DNA from: Olsenella sp. oral taxon 807
Lineage (GTDB): Bacteria > Actinomycetota > Coriobacteriia > Coriobacteriales > Atopobiaceae
Reading direction: 5' to 3'
Length of the DNA stretch: 64,000 bases
NCBI RefSeq assembly: GCF_001189515.2
Contig: NZ_CP012069.2
Location: 248,001-312,000 of the forward strand
Position 1 is the stretch's first letter. Every line of letters starts with the position of its first letter. Shown here one piece after another: positions 5,499-61,659 of this stretch. The position numbers were made by a program, and so were the translations under genes. The notes under the pieces are model-generated. The model saw only the letters and a list, made by a program, of their open reading frames with translations, was not told where the DNA came from and searched no databases.

Positions 5499-5635
5499 AG
5501 TGCCCCGCAGATTCTGGGGCACTTTGATCCGAACGCCAACTGGGCAAACGTTCTTGACAAGTGCCCCGCAGATTCTGGGGCACGTTGCGCAGGACTCCTC
5601 TGGGGCACGTTGCGCAGGACTCCTCTGGGATCACC
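5499..5635. repeat. GTGCCCC/GGGGCAC hairpin repeats, family C
   Basis: The hairpin AGTGCCCCGCAGATTCTGGG followed by GCAC occurs twice (about 5499-5523 and 5560-5584). Two direct copies of a unit reading TGGGGCACGTTGCGCAGGAC follow (to about 5635). Together they form a short array just upstream of the small minus-strand gene. The sequence differs from families A, B, D and E, but the architecture (short inverted repeats in a gap) is the same. Confidence 0.75.
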
Positions 5636-9771: not shown

Positions 9772-12603
9772 ATGCCCATTGGACCAGCACGCATGCCCCT
9801 GATGGATCACCTTGGCGAGCTGAGGCGCCGTCTTGCGATCGTTGCCGTGTCGCTCCTCGTCACGTCTGTCGTGGTCTATGTTGCCACACCCACTCTCATA
9901 GACATCATGCTCGACCCTATCAGGGATGTGTTCGAGTCAAACGAGCTGACGGTCCTCAGCGTACTCGGCGGCTTCACGATTCGCTTCAAGGTGGCCTTCT
10001 TCTTCAGTCTCATCATTTGCACACCAGTCATCGTCTGGGAGGTCATGGGCTTCTTTCTGCCCGCCCTCAAGCCCAGCGAGCGCAGGTGGGTGATACCTAC
10101 GGTGGCCGCGATGATCCTACTCTTCTTTTTGGGCATGGGTTTTTGCTATCTGGTGATCCAGAAGCCTACCATTGGATGGATGGTAGCCCAGAGCCGTGCC
10201 ATCGCAGATGTCATTCCAGAAGCCGAGGACTTCCTCAACATCATGATGCTCCTGGAGATTGGCTTCGGCTTTGCCTTCCAGCTGCCGCTCATCGTCTTCT
10301 ACCTCTCCATCCTGCACGTGGTCCCCTACAAGACCTTCCGCTCGCAGTGGCGCTACGTCTACATCGTGCTGCTTGTGATCTCGAGCGTTGTCACGCCTGA
10401 TGCCTCGCCGGTGACCATGATCCTGATGTTCGCCGCGCTCATTGCCCTCTATGAGATCGCACTTTTGATCGCGCGCTTTGTGCTCATTGCGCGGGACGGC
10501 AAGGAGTCACTCAAGTGGAGCCGGGAGGAGTACCAGGAATATGGGGACTCGATCCGACCCCATGAGGGAGATAAAGGAGGGACCGTAGACGCGCGCGCAG
10601 CTCAAGACTCTGACGCCCGGAGAGGCCGGGGGATCGCTTTGGGTCATCCAGGCCTTACGGTCCTGCGCTTGGTGGCCCTCGCCGCCTGCCTGGTGTTCGC
10701 GATCATGCTGGCTACGGCGCCGCCCCGTGAGGCGCCGAGGGTCGGTACCATCGGCACCGGCTGCTCCTACGAACTCGACACATGGTCTGGCACGCTCACC
10801 ATCTACCCCACGGACGGCGCGTCGGGGGAGATGGCTCGCGTCCGTGACGCGCTGTCTGACGATGGCGACCTCTTGGACGCCATCAGATCGGTAACCGTCA
10901 AGGAGGGCGTCGTGGCGCCCGCAGACTCAAGTTACCTCTTCGGGAGCCTGCGCGCGATGGAGTCTCTTGACCTCTCGGGTCTCGACACCTCGCGGGCCAC
11001 CGACATGAAAGGTATGTTCCAGAGCTGCGGGTCTCTCCGATCCCTGGACCTCTCGGGCCTCGACACCTCGCGGGTCACCGACATGGAGGATATGTTCTCC
11101 ATCTGTTTGTCGATCTCCTCCCTCGACCTCTCGCCGCTCGACACCTCGCAGGTCACAAACATGAAAGACATGTTCTCCAACTGCTTTTCGCTTCGATCCC
11201 TCGACCTCTCACCGCTCGACACCTCGCGAGTCACCGACATGTGGGGCATGTTCCAGGGCTGTTCGTCGCTTCGATCCCTCGACCTCTCGCCGCTCGACAC
11301 CTCGCAGGTCCAGTACATGGGGTACATGTTCTCCAACTGCTCGTCGCTCTCGTCCCTCGACCTCTCGCCGCTCAAAACCTCGCGAGTCACCGACATGGGA
11401 GGTATGTTCTGGGGCTGCTCGTCGCTCTCGTCCCTCGACCTCTCGCCGCTCGATACCTCGAGGGTTACGGACATGAGCAGCCCTATCGGGTTCGGCATGT
11501 TTGAGGACTGCTCGTCGCTCTCCTCCCTCGACCTCTCGCCGCTCGACACCTCGCAAGTCACAAAAATGAGTGGCATGTTCAGGGGCTGCTCGTCGCTCTC
11601 GTCCCTCGACCTCTCGCCACTCAAAACTTCGCAGGTCACGGATATGAGTGGCATGTTCAAGGGCTGCTCGTCGCTTCGATCCCTCGACCTCTCGCCGCTC
11701 GACACCTCGCAGGTCACGGACATGTGGGGCATGTTCGCCGACTGCTCGTCGCTTCGATCCCTCGACCTCTCGCCGCTCAAAACCTCGCAGGTCCAGTCTA
11801 TGGGGGGCATGTTTGATGGCTGCTCGTCGCTTCGATCCCTCGACCTCTCGCCGCTCGACACCTCGCAGGTCCAGCATATGGGGTACATGTTCGCCGACTG
11901 CTCGTCGCTCGCGTCCTTGGACCTCTCGCCGCTCAAAACCTTGCGGGTCGAGAGCATGTGGTACATGTTCTCCGGCTGCTCATCGCTCCGATCCCTCGAC
12001 CTCTCGCCGCTCGACACCTCGCAGGTCAAAAACATGAAAGACATGTTCTCCGGCTGCGCATCACTCCGATCCCTCGATCTCTCGTCGCTCAAAACCTCGC
12101 GGGTCATGGACATGAGTGACATGTTTGATGGCTGCTCGTCGCTCCGATCCCTCGACCTCTCCCGCCTTGACACCTCGAAGGTCACACGCATGGACTTCAT
12201 GTTCTCCGGCTGCTCCTCGCTCGCGTCCCTCGACCTCTCCCGCCTTGACACCTCGAAGGTCACACGCATGGACTTCATGTTCTCCGGCTGCTCCGCGCTC
12301 GCGTCCCTCGACCTCTCGGGCTGGGACACCTCAGAGGTCACCGGCATGTGGGGGATGTTCTTTGGCTGCTCCTCGCTCTCCTCGCTGGCGGTCGGGGAGG
12401 GGTGCGGGGGCGTCCTCTCGGCCGACAGGCACACGGCGCTCCCCGCGGGCGTGGGCAGCAGGGGGTGGTACTCCGAGAGGGACAAGAGGTGGCTCACACT
12501 GGGCGAGCTCTCGTCCTCTCGCCAGGGGGTGGCCGACACCTACACGGCCCCCGAGGCCTGGAGGTCGCTGGTGTCGCCGCAGGCGGCCCAAACGTCGCCG
12601 TAG
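9772..12603 (+). CDS. tatC: TatC fused in frame to a BspA-type leucine-rich repeat surface domain
   Basis: Residues 1-265 are a complete TatC: MDHLGELRRRL (twin-arginine signal recognition region), six membrane helices and the ending LKWSREEYQEYGD. A hydrophilic linker follows, then a seventh hydrophobic helix about 295-315 (VLRLVALAACLVFAIMLA), a globular stretch, 18 DUF285 repeats (residues 399-871) and a short C-terminal cap. TatC is normally N-in/C-in, so a seventh helix would place the repeats outside the cell. AAAGGAGG at 10573-10580 has no start codon after it, and TGA/TAA codons at 10563 and 10572 lie one frame away. This suggests that tatC once stopped here before a separate surface-protein gene. 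No stop or frameshift breaks the fusion. Confidence 0.88.
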   Translation: MPIGPARMPLMDHLGELRRRLAIVAVSLLVTSVVVYVATPTLIDIMLDPIRDVFESNELTVLSVLGGFTIRFKVAFFFSLIICTPVIVWEVMGFFLPALKPSERRWVIPTVAAMILLFFLGMGFCYLVIQKPTIGWMVAQSRAIADVIPEAEDFLNIMMLLEIGFGFAFQLPLIVFYLSILHVVPYKTFRSQWRYVYIVLLVISSVVTPDASPVTMILMFAALIALYEIALLIARFVLIARDGKESLKWSREEYQEYGDSIRPHEGDKGGTVDARAAQDSDARRGRGIALGHPGLTVLRLVALAACLVFAIMLATAPPREAPRVGTIGTGCSYELDTWSGTLTIYPTDGASGEMARVRDALSDDGDLLDAIRSVTVKEGVVAPADSSYLFGSLRAMESLDLSGLDTSRATDMKGMFQSCGSLRSLDLSGLDTSRVTDMEDMFSICLSISSLDLSPLDTSQVTNMKDMFSNCFSLRSLDLSPLDTSRVTDMWGMFQGCSSLRSLDLSPLDTSQVQYMGYMFSNCSSLSSLDLSPLKTSRVTDMGGMFWGCSSLSSLDLSPLDTSRVTDMSSPIGFGMFEDCSSLSSLDLSPLDTSQVTKMSGMFRGCSSLSSLDLSPLKTSQVTDMSGMFKGCSSLRSLDLSPLDTSQVTDMWGMFADCSSLRSLDLSPLKTSQVQSMGGMFDGCSSLRSLDLSPLDTSQVQHMGYMFADCSSLASLDLSPLKTLRVESMWYMFSGCSSLRSLDLSPLDTSQVKNMKDMFSGCASLRSLDLSSLKTSRVMDMSDMFDGCSSLRSLDLSRLDTSKVTRMDFMFSGCSSLASLDLSRLDTSKVTRMDFMFSGCSALASLDLSGWDTSEVTGMWGMFFGCSSLSSLAVGEGCGGVLSADRHTALPAGVGSRGWYSERDKRWLTLGELSSSRQGVADTYTAPEAWRSLVSPQAAQTSP
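10966..12384 (+). repeat. 18 tandem 78-bp repeats encoding DUF285 (BspA-like) units
   Basis: There are eighteen 26-residue units of form LDLSPLDTSxVTDMxxMFxG plus CSSLxS, in register without gaps, except that unit 7 has a 5-residue insertion (SPIGF). The repeats are highly similar at DNA level, notably the ctcgacctctcgccgctc block, so copy number is expected to vary by recombination. Units 16 and 17 are almost identical. Confidence 0.95.
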
Positions 12604-17463: not shown

Positions 17464-19004
17464 AGTTCAAATACGTGGCACACGACCTGTGGTTCGATCC
17501 TGCAGATACGGGTGCTGGAGAGGGAGACTACGCCATCTGCGCGACCGAACGCGGACAGGAGATAGGCCTTTGCACCATGGATGCCATGGAGGTGGACGAG
17601 GAGCGCCTCAGGCAGCGGATAGATAAGGCGAGCCTGAGTAGCGTGGTGCGCATCGCATCGGAGTCCGACCTCGATCGTGCCGACAAGCTCGCCCGGCAGG
17701 GTGAGGATGCGCTTCCGACCTTTCGTGATTCTGTGTACAAGCTGAATCTTGACATGAAGCCCATAGGCGTCGAGTACCTCTTCGACGGTGGTCGCGTCGT
17801 GTGTTACTTCTCGGCGGAGGATCGTGTTGACTTTCGCCAGCTCGTGCGTGTGCTCAGCCGTGAACTGCGCAAACGCATCGACATGCGCCAGATCGGGGTG
17901 CGCGAGGAGGCCGCCCTTGTGGGTGGTTTCGCACACTGTGGGCAGGAGCTCTGCTGCGCGCGGCTAGGTTGCAGGCTGGAGCCCGTCTCCATTCGAATGG
18001 CCAAGGAGCAGGACCTGCCGCTCAACACATCCAAGATCTCGGGTGCCTGCGGGCGACTCATGTGCTGTTTGCGCTACGAGTTCGATGCGTACAAGGACTT
18101 CAAGCAGCGCGCGCCCAAGCGTAACGCCGTGATAGAGACGCCGCTCGGCAAGGCGAAGATCGTCGAGTATGACACGCCCAAGGAGCAGATATGCCTGCGT
18201 CTTGAGAATGGAAAACAGGTGCGCATCCCCCTCGCGGAGATGCAGACCTCCGAAGCGGCGGTCAAGAAGAGCGAGGAGCTGCACTGCCCCTGCCGCCCGG
18301 ATATGGTGCCGCGCTCGGCGCTCGAGAGGCTCCAATCGCCCGAGGTGCAGATGGCACTCGCGGAGCTCGATCGGGTCCATGGTGTGGTTCCCAAGGCTGC
18401 CTTCGATTCGGCCGACATATTCGTGGAGAGCAAGCCACGTCGTCGTAGCCGGAGGAGCCGCAGGCAAGATGGTAGCATGAGTGGCGCCCAAGGTGCCGAC
18501 GGCGCCCGCTCAACCTTCCATCCCCGGGGCGCAAAATCTGCGCCCACCCCGCGCGAGGGTGACGAACCGTCCGCGCGGACCCAAAATCGCTCGAAGCGTC
18601 GGCGCAAGAAAGGTGGCGTCGGTGGAGTTTCTGGCGGCAGTCCAACCAAGGAGCGGGTGCAGGAGACGCCGGTTAAGTCCGACGCAAGGCACCGTCGCCG
18701 CCACCATGAGGATGGTGATGTCAGCGACGGAGCAGTGTGGCCGGCTACGACCTTGGTGAGGTCTGATGGCGCAGGCATGCCGCAGGACCGTCCCGTCCGT
18801 CGCCGCCCAGGAGATCGTGGGGGACAGCAGGCAAAGGTCCAGACTCGAGGCCAAGACGGACAGCGCACACAGGCTCAGGGCACGGGAACGCACGAGGGCA
18901 CCAGTAAGCCCAAGAGGCGTCGTCGCAGTGGTCGAGGGCGTGGCAGTGGCGGTGGTGGTCTTGGCACCCAAGGCCCAGGCTCAGATCCCAGTTCCGCCAC
19001 ATGA
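17442..19004 (+). CDS. ricT: PSP1-domain protein, RicT/YaaT family
   Basis: Residues 1-270 form a PSP1 domain with the conserved cysteine cluster CGQELCCARLGC and CGRLMCCLRYE (about residues 167-208). In Bacillus, RicT binds Fe-S clusters within the RicAFT complex that controls RNA processing through RNase Y; that partner complex was not seen here. Residues 300-520 are a basic, low-complexity tail rich in Arg, Gly and Thr, unlike the compact Bacillus protein (275 aa), and could bind RNA. AAGGAGG at 17429-17435 fixes the ATG start inside holB. The tmk-holB-ricT neighbourhood is conserved in Gram-positives. Confidence 0.88.
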   Translation: MPTVIPVKFKYVAHDLWFDPADTGAGEGDYAICATERGQEIGLCTMDAMEVDEERLRQRIDKASLSSVVRIASESDLDRADKLARQGEDALPTFRDSVYKLNLDMKPIGVEYLFDGGRVVCYFSAEDRVDFRQLVRVLSRELRKRIDMRQIGVREEAALVGGFAHCGQELCCARLGCRLEPVSIRMAKEQDLPLNTSKISGACGRLMCCLRYEFDAYKDFKQRAPKRNAVIETPLGKAKIVEYDTPKEQICLRLENGKQVRIPLAEMQTSEAAVKKSEELHCPCRPDMVPRSALERLQSPEVQMALAELDRVHGVVPKAAFDSADIFVESKPRRRSRRSRRQDGSMSGAQGADGARSTFHPRGAKSAPTPREGDEPSARTQNRSKRRRKKGGVGGVSGGSPTKERVQETPVKSDARHRRRHHEDGDVSDGAVWPATTLVRSDGAGMPQDRPVRRRPGDRGGQQAKVQTRGQDGQRTQAQGTGTHEGTSKPKRRRRSGRGRGSGGGGLGTQGPGSDPSSAT

Positions 19005-26192: not shown

Positions 26193-26690
26193 CCCGTGAG
26201 CCCAACCTCCCATAATGCGCTTTTCCGTGACCCCGGCCTCACAGAATGCGCTTTTCCGTGACCCCGGCCTCCCAGAGTGCGCTTTTCCGTGAGGAGGTAC
26301 CCCCAGAATGCGCTTTTTCGTGAGGGGTCACACGCAGAATGCGCTTTTCCGTAGAGTGCGCTTTTCCTCACCTGCGCAAACGTCGAGACACCTCACGGAA
26401 AACCGCATTCTGAGTCCGCACCCTCACGGAAAACCGCATTCTGAGTCCGCACCCTCACGGAAAGGCGCACTCTATGGTCGACGCGGGTTGCAGAATGCGA
26501 CTTTGGTGACAACGCTTGGGCAAACTGCGCTTTTCCGTGAGCCCAACCTCCCAGAATGCGCTTTTCCGTGAGCCCAACCTCCCAGAATGCGCTTTTCCGT
26601 AGAATGCGCTTTTCCTCACCTGCGCAAACGCTGTGACGATTTACCGAAAACCGCATTTTGTCTCATCGACCTCACGGAAAAGCGCACTAT
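26193..26690. repeat. inverted-unit repeat array, family D, locus 1 (498 bp, two cores)
   Basis: Units of about 20 bp (AGAATGCGCTTTTCCGTGAG) separated by 11-18 bp run forward into a core, and as reverse complement after it. Core a spans 26336-26411 and core b 26584-26659, both reading on the minus strand relative to loci 2 and 3. A core consists of a doublet of units, then CTCACCTGCGCAAACG, then an inverted unit. A forward run and a reverse run flank each core, so each module is a large imperfect palindrome. It fills the gap between rsmA and tatD. ORFs through it are repeat artefacts. Confidence 0.9.
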
Positions 26691-29280: not shown

Positions 29281-29560
29281 GTTTTACCCAGGTCTGTGGT
29301 TGCGGGATTCGGCCCCTGCCTTTTCTAGGCGGTCGGTTGATACCCTAGTCCATGACAGACGAGGTCAAAGGGATCCACGTAAGCCGGACGTGAGCGTGCC
29401 GGCGAGCATGGCTCGTCCTAGGAGTAAGTCGCACCGCCCGACGATAAGCAAGGACGTGGGGTCCTGCGGGCGAGAGAGCCCACGGTGGGGGGCCGTAGCC
29501 CCGAAGCCAAAGCCCCGGTGCGCGAGTGTGGGGGAAAATACCAGGTCAGCTGGGTAAGAC
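29281..29560 (+). ncRNA. structured noncoding RNA, probably the raiA motif
   Basis: This roughly 280-nt stretch is GC-rich, with many local hairpins and no coding frame. Its two ends pair: GTTTTACCCAG at 29281-29291 with CTGGGTAAGAC at 29550-29560 (11 bp with one G-U), giving a closing P1 helix that begins at the predicted transcription start. Internal stems include the GGACGTG-GGGTCC region and GGGGCCG-TAGCCCC. The raiA RNA is known from Actinobacteria and Firmicutes, between comFC and the hibernation factor gene (raiA/hpf). Both genes flank this site in that order, with one lipoprotein gene inserted. Identity rests on context and fold, not on a covariance-model hit. Confidence 0.65.
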
Positions 29561-50935: not shown

Positions 50936-51410
50936 CTTACGGAAAAGCACATTCCACAACCCATCGGTTGGACAGACTGCGCTTTTCCGTGAGGGGTCAC
51001 ACGCAGAATGCGCTTTTCCGTGACCCGCAGGAGCCAGAATGCGCTTTTCCGTGAGGAGGCTCGACGTTTGCCCAGGTGAGGAAAAGCACATTCTACGGAA
51101 AAGCGCATTCTGGCTACAGTCCTTCACCAAAAAGTGCACTTTGTGATTGTGACATCACGCAAAGGTGCACTCTGGCTACGTCCCTTACGAAAAAGTGCGC
51201 TCTGTATGTGCGCTGGGGCATAGAATGCGTCTTTACGTAAGTGGTGGGTCTCAGAATGCGCTTTTCCGTGAGGGGTCACACGCAGAATGCGCTTTTCCGT
51301 GAGGTGGCTCGACGTTTGCCCAGGTAAGGAAAAGCGCATTTTATGGAAAAGCGCATTCTACGATTGCTGTGACACCAAAAAGCGCATTCTGTGCGTCTCT
51401 TACGGCAAGT
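50936..51410. repeat. inverted-unit repeat array, family D, locus 2 (475 bp, two cores)
   Basis: It has the same design as locus 1 but cores read on the plus strand: core a 51036-51111, core b 51284-51359. Each core reads unit, then GTGAGG, GGCTCGACGTTTGCCCAGGT, GAGG and a unit doublet. The spacer GAGGGGTCACACGC before a unit occurs twice here and once in locus 1, so loci share sequence beyond the units. Some units right of core a are decayed. It lies between the second sortase and the Rpn gene. Confidence 0.9.
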
Positions 51411-60486: not shown

Positions 60487-61490
60487 CCAGAGTGCGCTTT
60501 TCCGTGAGGGCGGCGTCACGCGGGCGCCCAGAATGTACTTTTCCGTGAGGCTCCAGCTCCAGAATGCGCTTTTCCGTGAGGTGGCTCGACGTTTGCCCAG
60601 GTGAGGAAAAGCGCATTCTACGGAAAAGCGCATTCTGTGCAGACGCCCTCACGAAAAAGCGCACTCTGACCCACCACCCTCACGGAAAAGCGCACTCTGC
60701 ATCCGCAGGGTCACGGAAAAGCGCACTCTCCAACCGACGTCTCACGGAAAAGCGCACTCTCCAACCGACGTCTCACGGAAAAGCACATCCTACCCTCGCG
60801 TCGGTGGCCAAACTGCGCCTTTCCGTGAGGGCCCACAGTCAGACTGCGCCTTTTCGTGAGGCACCACGGCTATAATGCGCTTCTTCGTGAGGCACCAACT
60901 CCAGAATGCGCTTTTCCGTGAGACGGCGCCACGTTTGCGCAGGTGAGGAAAAGCGCACTCTACGGAAAAGCGCATTCTGCGCAGGCGACCTCACGAAAAA
61001 GCGCACTCTGCATCCGCAGGGTCACGGAAAAGCGCATTCTCCAACCGACGCCTCACGGATAAGCGCATCCTGCCCTCGCGCCGGTGGCCAAAGTGCGCCT
61101 TTCCGTGAGGGCGTTACGGAAAGGCGCAACCTGCGATCCCTAAACCACCCAAAGTGCGCTTTTCCGTGAGGGCCCACAGTCAGACTGCGCCTTTTCGTGA
61201 GGCACCAACTCCAGAATGCGCTTTTCCGTGAGACGGCGCCACGTTTGCGCAGGTGAGGAAAAGCGCACTCTACGGAAAAGCGCATTCTGTGCAGACGCCC
61301 TCACGAAAAAGCACACTCTGACCCACCACTTTCACGGAGAAGCACATTCTGCGTGCGCGACTCACGAAAAAGCACATTCTGCGTGCGCGACTCACGAAAA
61401 AGCGCATTCTGCGTGCGCGATGTGACGAAAAAGCACATTCTGGATGGGCGACGCGATTACGGCGACGCGACGAAGAGGCGCACTCTGCGC
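60487..61490. repeat. inverted-unit repeat array, family D, locus 3 (1,004 bp, three cores)
   Basis: It holds three successive modules with cores 60561-60637, 60903-60979 and 61213-61288, all on the plus strand. In each, forward units (GCGCTTTTCCGTGAGG) lead to the core and reverse units (CCTCACGGAAAAGCGC) leave it; modules meet near 60800 and 61090 around GGCC. Spacers are shared between modules (TGCATCCGCAGGGT, CCAACCGACG, GGGCCCACAGTCAGAC, TGACCCACCAC). The last three reverse units share the spacer GCGTGCGCGA. Core spacer is GGCTCGACGTTTGCCCAGG in module 1 and GGCGCCACGTTTGCGCAGG in modules 2 and 3. Confidence 0.92.
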
Positions 61491-61659
61491 AATTCGACTC
61501 CCTCGACCAGAGGCGCACAATCGACAACGAAGACCAAAGCTGGGGCGGTGGCCCAGGTGGTGCCGCCGCCCCACGCAGCCGCCCCACGCAGCCGCCCCTC
61601 GCTGCCGCCCTACGCAGCCGCCCCTCGCTGCCGCCCCGTGCCGGCCGGTTCCCTACGCT
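61491..61659. other. gap between array D3 and mtlA, with CGCCGCCCC-type simple repeats
   Basis: It holds a low-complexity run of GCCGCCCC/ACGCAGCC repeats (61561-61640). No terminator with T-run for the minus-strand PTS gene was recognised. Confidence 0.4.

Follow-up and report, generated by a model that had tools for sequence, protein, structure and literature searches.

The window, meaning the whole stretch of 64,000 nucleotides that was analyzed (bases 248001-312000 of the single-contig, 3,213,585-bp genome), carries three intergenic arrays of short repeats, which the initial annotation had described as sharing one design with seven cores in all (Table 1). A search with the repeat unit AGAATGCGCTTTTCCGTGAG, allowing up to three mismatches, returned 46 matches in the window, every one of them inside the three named loci, where 100 shuffles gave an expectation of 0.00, and the seven cores lie at the places and on the strands that had been described. 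At the center of each core is a sequence that we call the heart, with the 16-bp consensus CGTTTGCCCAGTTGAG and, in the type A cores of the window, the variant CGTTTGCSCAGGTGAG. Two hearts lie on the minus strand in array 1, two on the plus strand in array 2, and three on the plus strand in array 3; an additional eighth match at position 5534, with three mismatches, looks like chance. No terminator T-run was seen at the window cores.

Table 1. Arrays, type A cores and hearts, in positions of the window
Feature	Position	Strand
Array 1: units and two type A cores	26212..26690	minus
Type A core 1 (unit, heart, short unit, unit)	26336..26411	minus
Heart of core 1, ACGTTTGCGCAGGTGAGG	26366..26383	minus
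Type A core 2; single-side unit 26640-26659 decayed	26584..26659	minus
Heart of core 2, GCGTTTGCGCAGGTGAGG	26614..26631	minus
Array 2: units and two type A cores	50936..51410	plus
Type A core 3	51036..51111	plus
Heart of core 3, ACGTTTGCCCAGGTGAGG	51064..51081	plus
Type A core 4	51284..51359	plus
Heart of core 4, ACGTTTGCCCAGGTAAGG	51312..51329	plus
Array 3: at least 26 units, three type A cores; final ~60 bp decayed	60489..61490	plus
Type A core 5; genome's top match to the core profile	60561..60636	plus
Heart of core 5, ACGTTTGCCCAGGTGAGG	60589..60606	plus
Type A core 6	60903..60978	plus
Heart of core 6, ACGTTTGCGCAGGTGAGG	60931..60948	plus
Type A core 7	61213..61288	plus
Heart of core 7, ACGTTTGCGCAGGTGAGG	61241..61258	plus

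In the plus orientation, the type A module has its direct units AGAATGCGCTTTTCCGTGAG first, one or several of them at a 31-bp period; a 9-bp spacer separates them from the heart CGTTTGCSCAGGTGAG, after which the units are inverted. A shortened inverted unit, GAAAAGCGCAYTCT, is fused directly to the end of the heart, and beyond it come ACGGAAAAGCGCATTCTG and further inverted units, again at 31-bp steps. The asymmetry of the core, noted earlier as a single unit on one side and a doublet on the other, is exact: the unit begins 29 bp ahead of the heart, the shortened inverted unit adjoins the heart's end, and a full inverted unit comes 17 bp further on. Of the 103 outward-facing junctions where two modules meet, 91 measured exactly 38 bp; palindromes in the 38-bp junctions were only weakly above shuffles (4.26 vs 3.81 pairs). 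Neighboring cores of the same cluster were co-oriented in 38 of 39 cases. The strict 31-bp period and the 38-bp junctions add to the initial annotation, as do the 171-175 bp type B junction and the genome-wide counts given below.

Three other features of the window were observed in passing. A GC-rich 13/26-bp tandem repeat occupies positions 61565-61637, directly after array 3 and just downstream of a PTS-like gene; the gap at 29283-29558 holds a raiA RNA (Rfam RF03072, 160.5 bits); and positions 10962-12380 contain about 18 copies of a 78-bp tandem repeat in a long open frame that looks like a leucine-rich, BspA-like protein.

Copies, arm systems and unit spacing in the genome

The further copies that the initial annotation had looked to in the rest of the genome are abundant. 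With up to two mismatches allowed, the chromosome holds 288+297, that is at least 585, units, and the core pattern matched 60+56 = 116 type A cores, while the same pattern read backwards matched none. From the 107 type A cores whose surroundings were read, we count about 68 intergenic loci across the chromosome, and all types together bring the element to well over 150 copies; these genome counts come from pattern searches, which miss diverged hearts, and only stretches around the matches were read. With genes called by a simple codon-based script, type A loci were found in tandem, convergent, and divergent gene gaps, and the cores showed no significant preference of orientation relative to genes (25 against, 17 with). 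Clustering of core orientation along the chromosome was likewise not significant (runs z -1.6); judging by the GC skew of the sampled stretches, the origin lies at about 3.0 Mb and the terminus at about 1.4 Mb.

Elsewhere in the genome a second type of inward junction, 171-175 bp long, has a different core and the same heart. This type B element reads GGTTGC-TCGAGC-GCATTTGCCCAGTTGAG-NCATTYTCCATAGTG between two copies of the GC-rich box CCCCGCAGNCTGGCGGGGGGTTGC, is present in 52 copies, and sits inside or beside the same units as type A. In type C, the palindrome TAGTGCCCCAGAATCTGCGGGGCACTA stands about 9 bp to either side of CGTTTGCCCAGTTGAG; we put it at about 15 copies (the heart search gives 15 exact copies, of which at least one is type B and nine others were read). 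One locus (L423) is a B/C hybrid in tandem. Thus, one genome surrounds the same heart with three arm systems. At G000 C1:3106700-3118400 (L147, L148), three type B hearts stand in dense GC-rich repeats (GCGGGCGGTTGC, CCCCGCAGGCTG) and lack AGAATGCGC units, perhaps as an older form.

Comparison between arrays gives 84% identity for the units. For the inner 8 bp of the spacers the identity is 34.7%, where base composition alone would give 35.0%, and therefore selection acts on each unit. Unit positions 4, 9, 10, and 14 are degenerate, with restricted variation, and most other positions are nearly fixed. The spacing of neighboring units is 31 bp in 387 of 472 cases and 30-32 bp in 438 (93%). Among the 29 spacings longer than 33 bp, 24 fall at 41-42 bp, two at 52 bp, and three at 34-40 bp, and 26 of these 29 exceed 31 bp by one or two turns of the helix (Rayleigh about 2e-10 for independent spacings, a value that is overstated if the 41-42 bp spacings descend from a few copied events). 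The 31-bp steps and whole-turn deviations keep the units on one helical face, which is the arrangement that proteins stacking along one side of a DNA duplex need.

The heart in Atopobiaceae

The initial annotation had proposed a search of relatives. The core sequence of the window is absent from four genomes in the genus and from about 400 in the order, AGAATGCGCTTTTCCGTGAG-type units were not found in the relatives searched, and the exact core had no match in a genome-contig collection. The heart behaves differently: its 14-bp center, TTTGCCCAGTTGAG, occurs exactly in 33 of about 140 genomes of the family vs 4 among 258 elsewhere in the order (Fisher 1e-12). The extended 16-mer was found in only one genome among 395 others sampled across the phylum, a draw with few family genomes in it, and a gapped heart pattern run against the genome-contig collection gave mostly chance matches in unrelated phyla and one real Atopobiaceae locus. 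Relatives carry 0-8 copies per genome, vs more than 150 here.

Thirty of the 32 heart positions examined in relatives are intergenic, and strong inverted arms flank 11 of 29 sampled heart loci vs 2.5% of random places (6e-11). The same arms recur within a genome, but they differ from one genome to the next, for example GTGTACGGAACTCG; GACAGCATT..AATGCTGTC; CTTTTGCGGCCGCAAAAG; GGTGCCAATAACG; and ACGTCGAACGCGT, the last repeated at steps of about 30 bp like the units of the window. A genome of the same genus (G004) carries its own analogous families, among them CGTGTGGGTGCGAATCGGGC units with a 20-bp period around CACAAAATGGCAGGTCGC. The same plan was recovered by profile search in another genus, beside rpmB, with units AGATTGCGACTTTTCCCGC and heart CGCGTTTGCCCAGGAAG, and by the gapped pattern in two species of a third genus, in the same gap before a putative cysS. 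Conserved presence at orthologous gaps, which the initial annotation had named as a point to check, was found in sister species: the heart is identical at 14 of 14 positions and the arm blocks are kept, while the intervening letters have changed. This pattern is the footprint of a function and not just of recent copying. The heart is family-wide, shared by many Atopobiaceae genera, and only the arms are local.

Two further structures were met in this genus. G004 has a MITE-like element of about 165 bp (L152:749-909, L161:5516-5676, L162:6403-6554 and 18203-18353, L165:11394-11544) with 28-bp inverted ends around GGCCCCAAGTGCGTGC; its arms do covary (AAACGG/CCGTTT, AAAAGG/CCTTTT), and a possible distant heart, AAAAGCCCAGGAT, lies in its interior. 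A near-perfect hairpin of about 20 bp, GTCCTGTC.CTAATTTTGCG, is located some 600 bp beyond the end of a gene in a further genome of the genus (L126); its loop TTTCCCCAGGATT resembles the heart.

Readings of the arrays

The arrays combine a repeated anatomy, selection on heart and units, and a heart that occurs across the family. We propose, at about even probability, that they are composite double-stranded docking sites for proteins, multiplied and retained in this genome. A family-wide factor would recognize the heart (consensus CGTTTGCCCAGTTGAG; type A variant CGTTTGCSCAGGTGAG), and a second, fast-changing and lineage-specific factor would bind the inward-pointing units on one face of the helix, facing each other across the heart. 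Together the two factors would assemble a directional complex that might recombine or copy the element or else organize the chromosome. The copies would have multiplied by gene conversion or some form of copying in trans, together with tandem duplication on a local scale, and selection on heart and units would retain them. Among the ideas of the initial annotation, that of a binding platform for a nucleoid or segregation protein fits best. Against the docking-site reading, no binding protein and no gene tracking the heart by its presence was found, and the low copy number in other genomes (0-8) would suit a mobile element more than a chromosome organizer. More tentatively, the arrays could belong to a DNA-site system of the whole Atopobiaceae, in which a conserved protein reads the 16-bp directional heart and a partner reads the species-specific, helically phased inverted units, with a job for the host such as directing recombination or chromosome folding. 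The specificity of this partner would be repeatedly replaced, even inside a single genome, as with the three arm systems seen here.

The main rival is a REPIN-like, non-autonomous mobile element read as a single strand, in which the arms pair, the heart lies in the loop, and a non-RAYT nicking or recombining enzyme copies it in trans. We regard this as rather unlikely, though it accounts for inverted arms around a heart as the common denominator of most loci, for the large burst in one genome, and for the nearly exclusively intergenic location. It would also agree with the folding of type A cores when single-stranded (z -4.5 to -8.3), which is, however, what any inverted repeat shows. Over 107 type A cores, comparison of the left unit with the two inner right units revealed no arm-to-arm covariation (1.94 and 1.86 mismatches vs 1.85 and 1.85 when shuffled), and covariation was absent in type B too. 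The numbers of units to the left and right of a core are uncorrelated (rho -0.11). Because there is neither pairing covariation nor a balance of unit counts, the arrays are not one long selected stem, and the cruciform that the initial annotation had suggested is not supported as the selected feature of the window arrays. Many tandem units of the same direction have no partner, and the helical spacing points to duplex recognition. In low-copy elements and those of types B and C the arms are themselves palindromic and would fold strongly (one at z -6.8), and here a hairpin may have a role; among 25 arm columns, three orthologues show three possible paired substitutions. One conserved orthologous element does not fold (z -0.7).

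Control of transcription, by operators or terminators that have a promoter-like heart in common, would suit the intergenic location and the palindromic arms that adjoin some genes, one of them by a LacI-type regulator (L112). We consider it improbable, since convergent, tandem, and divergent gaps are all used, orientation relative to genes is not significantly biased, and the window cores are without a T-run. A structured noncoding RNA whose loop is conserved and whose stems vary is more improbable still; a conserved heart with differing arms and the strong folding of some copies would agree with it, but Rfam gave no match at the arrays even at permissive E-values, and at 17 loci of relatives it returned only neighboring tRNAs and sub-threshold chance matches. 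The lack of covariation, the occurrence in both orientations relative to genes, and the number of copies also speak against an RNA.

Least probable of all, and in our view to be rejected, is the classical REP/REPIN (BIME) driven by a RAYT transposase, which the initial annotation had raised as mobilization in trans and coupled to a RAYT gene tracking the arrays. Intergenic position, high copy number, alternating orientation, and composite clusters would all agree with it. Yet the only two Y1 transposases of this genome are IS200-type TnpA copies (G000 C1:1897213-1897560 and 2547829-2548131; L041, L042; open frames of 158 and 155 aa) that share the hairpin end GATCCCCCGGCGTAGCCGGGGGCTT, and no unit, at up to five mismatches, lies beside them. 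Classical REPINs are thus excluded here because the genome has no RAYT. In heart-bearing relatives, 20 RAYT-like genes had no heart within 1.5 kb, and neither G106, with three hearts, nor G025 is among the genomes with a Y1 match. The RAYT reading fails in this genome and, as regards proximity, in relatives, and no other driver emerged. RAYT-like genes of about 260 aa are widespread in Atopobiaceae (L398-L417), and the three that were read closely are flanked by palindromes of their own, such as TGATCCAAAAGGGGACAGACCCCTTTTGGATCA; in G014, REPs like those at RAYT-like genes also adjoin two heart elements (L357, L362).

Comparison with known repeat systems

The arrays are undescribed, as the initial annotation had held, and no layout of a CRISPR, a catalogued RNA, or an IS was seen in them. 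Rfam had no match at the arrays, and plasmid and phage collections gave none either. Core and unit had no match in viral contigs, and the 17 matches of the heart there are about chance by a rough estimate. The literature search found no text with the heart sequence and no description of such repeats in this group. CRISPR repeats are 23-47 bp long and identical, with unique spacers of similar length, and go with cas genes, whereas here the units are 20 bp, the spacers 11 bp, and the halves inverted. Integron attC sites have R'/R'' boxes and go with an integron integrase and its cassettes; no cassette-like layout was seen at the arrays.

REP, BIME, and REPIN sequences associated with RAYTs are short intergenic repeats of alternating orientation that form composite clusters, are lineage-specific, and persist vertically (PMC3116915, PMC2817692), and the arrays resemble them in all of these respects. 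They differ in that the type A unit is no tagged palindrome, the heart is constant across genera while the arms are replaced, there is no RAYT, and the units are phased at 31 bp. REP units measure 20-40 bp, form imperfect palindromes, and bear a tag of the GTAG or CGTC type; here the unit of type A, AGAATGCGCTTTTCCGTGAG, is non-palindromic, and types B and C are palindromic with no such tag apparent at one end. Pneumococcal BOX elements, in which boxA and boxC ends enclose a variable number of tandem boxB modules (PMC3049150), are similarly modular, interspersed, intergenic, and variable in the number of tandem modules, but in the arrays an asymmetric constant module sits in the middle, with inverted repeated modules outside it, which is not the BOX arrangement. 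Staphylococcal STAR elements, described as a direct repeat (PMC3532100), are likewise short, interspersed, and intergenic; here the arrays are inverted around a heart. MITEs also have inverted arms around a short interior and many copies per genome (PMC3049150). Their ends are conserved because a transposase reads them, whereas here the center is conserved and the array ends vary, and neither a parent element nor a target duplication was seen in the stretches read around matches.

The arrangement of lambda attP, with its arm and core sites, and of the Tn7 ends places a core-type site among repeated, phased arm-type protein sites. The arrays share this plan; they differ in having more than 100 chromosomal copies and in that no recombinase or autonomous element was identified.

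Taken together, the element is undescribed and belongs broadly to the interspersed intergenic repeats, with their logic reversed: the center is conserved and the arms are exchanged. What defines the interspersed repeats known from bacteria is conserved ends or palindromes, and often a single type of transposase. A center conserved across genera, with arms exchanged wholesale, points instead to two predicted recognition proteins, of which one would be stable and the other fast-changing, and the 16-bp heart offers a direct handle on its putative factor and on the many copies here relative to the few in relatives.
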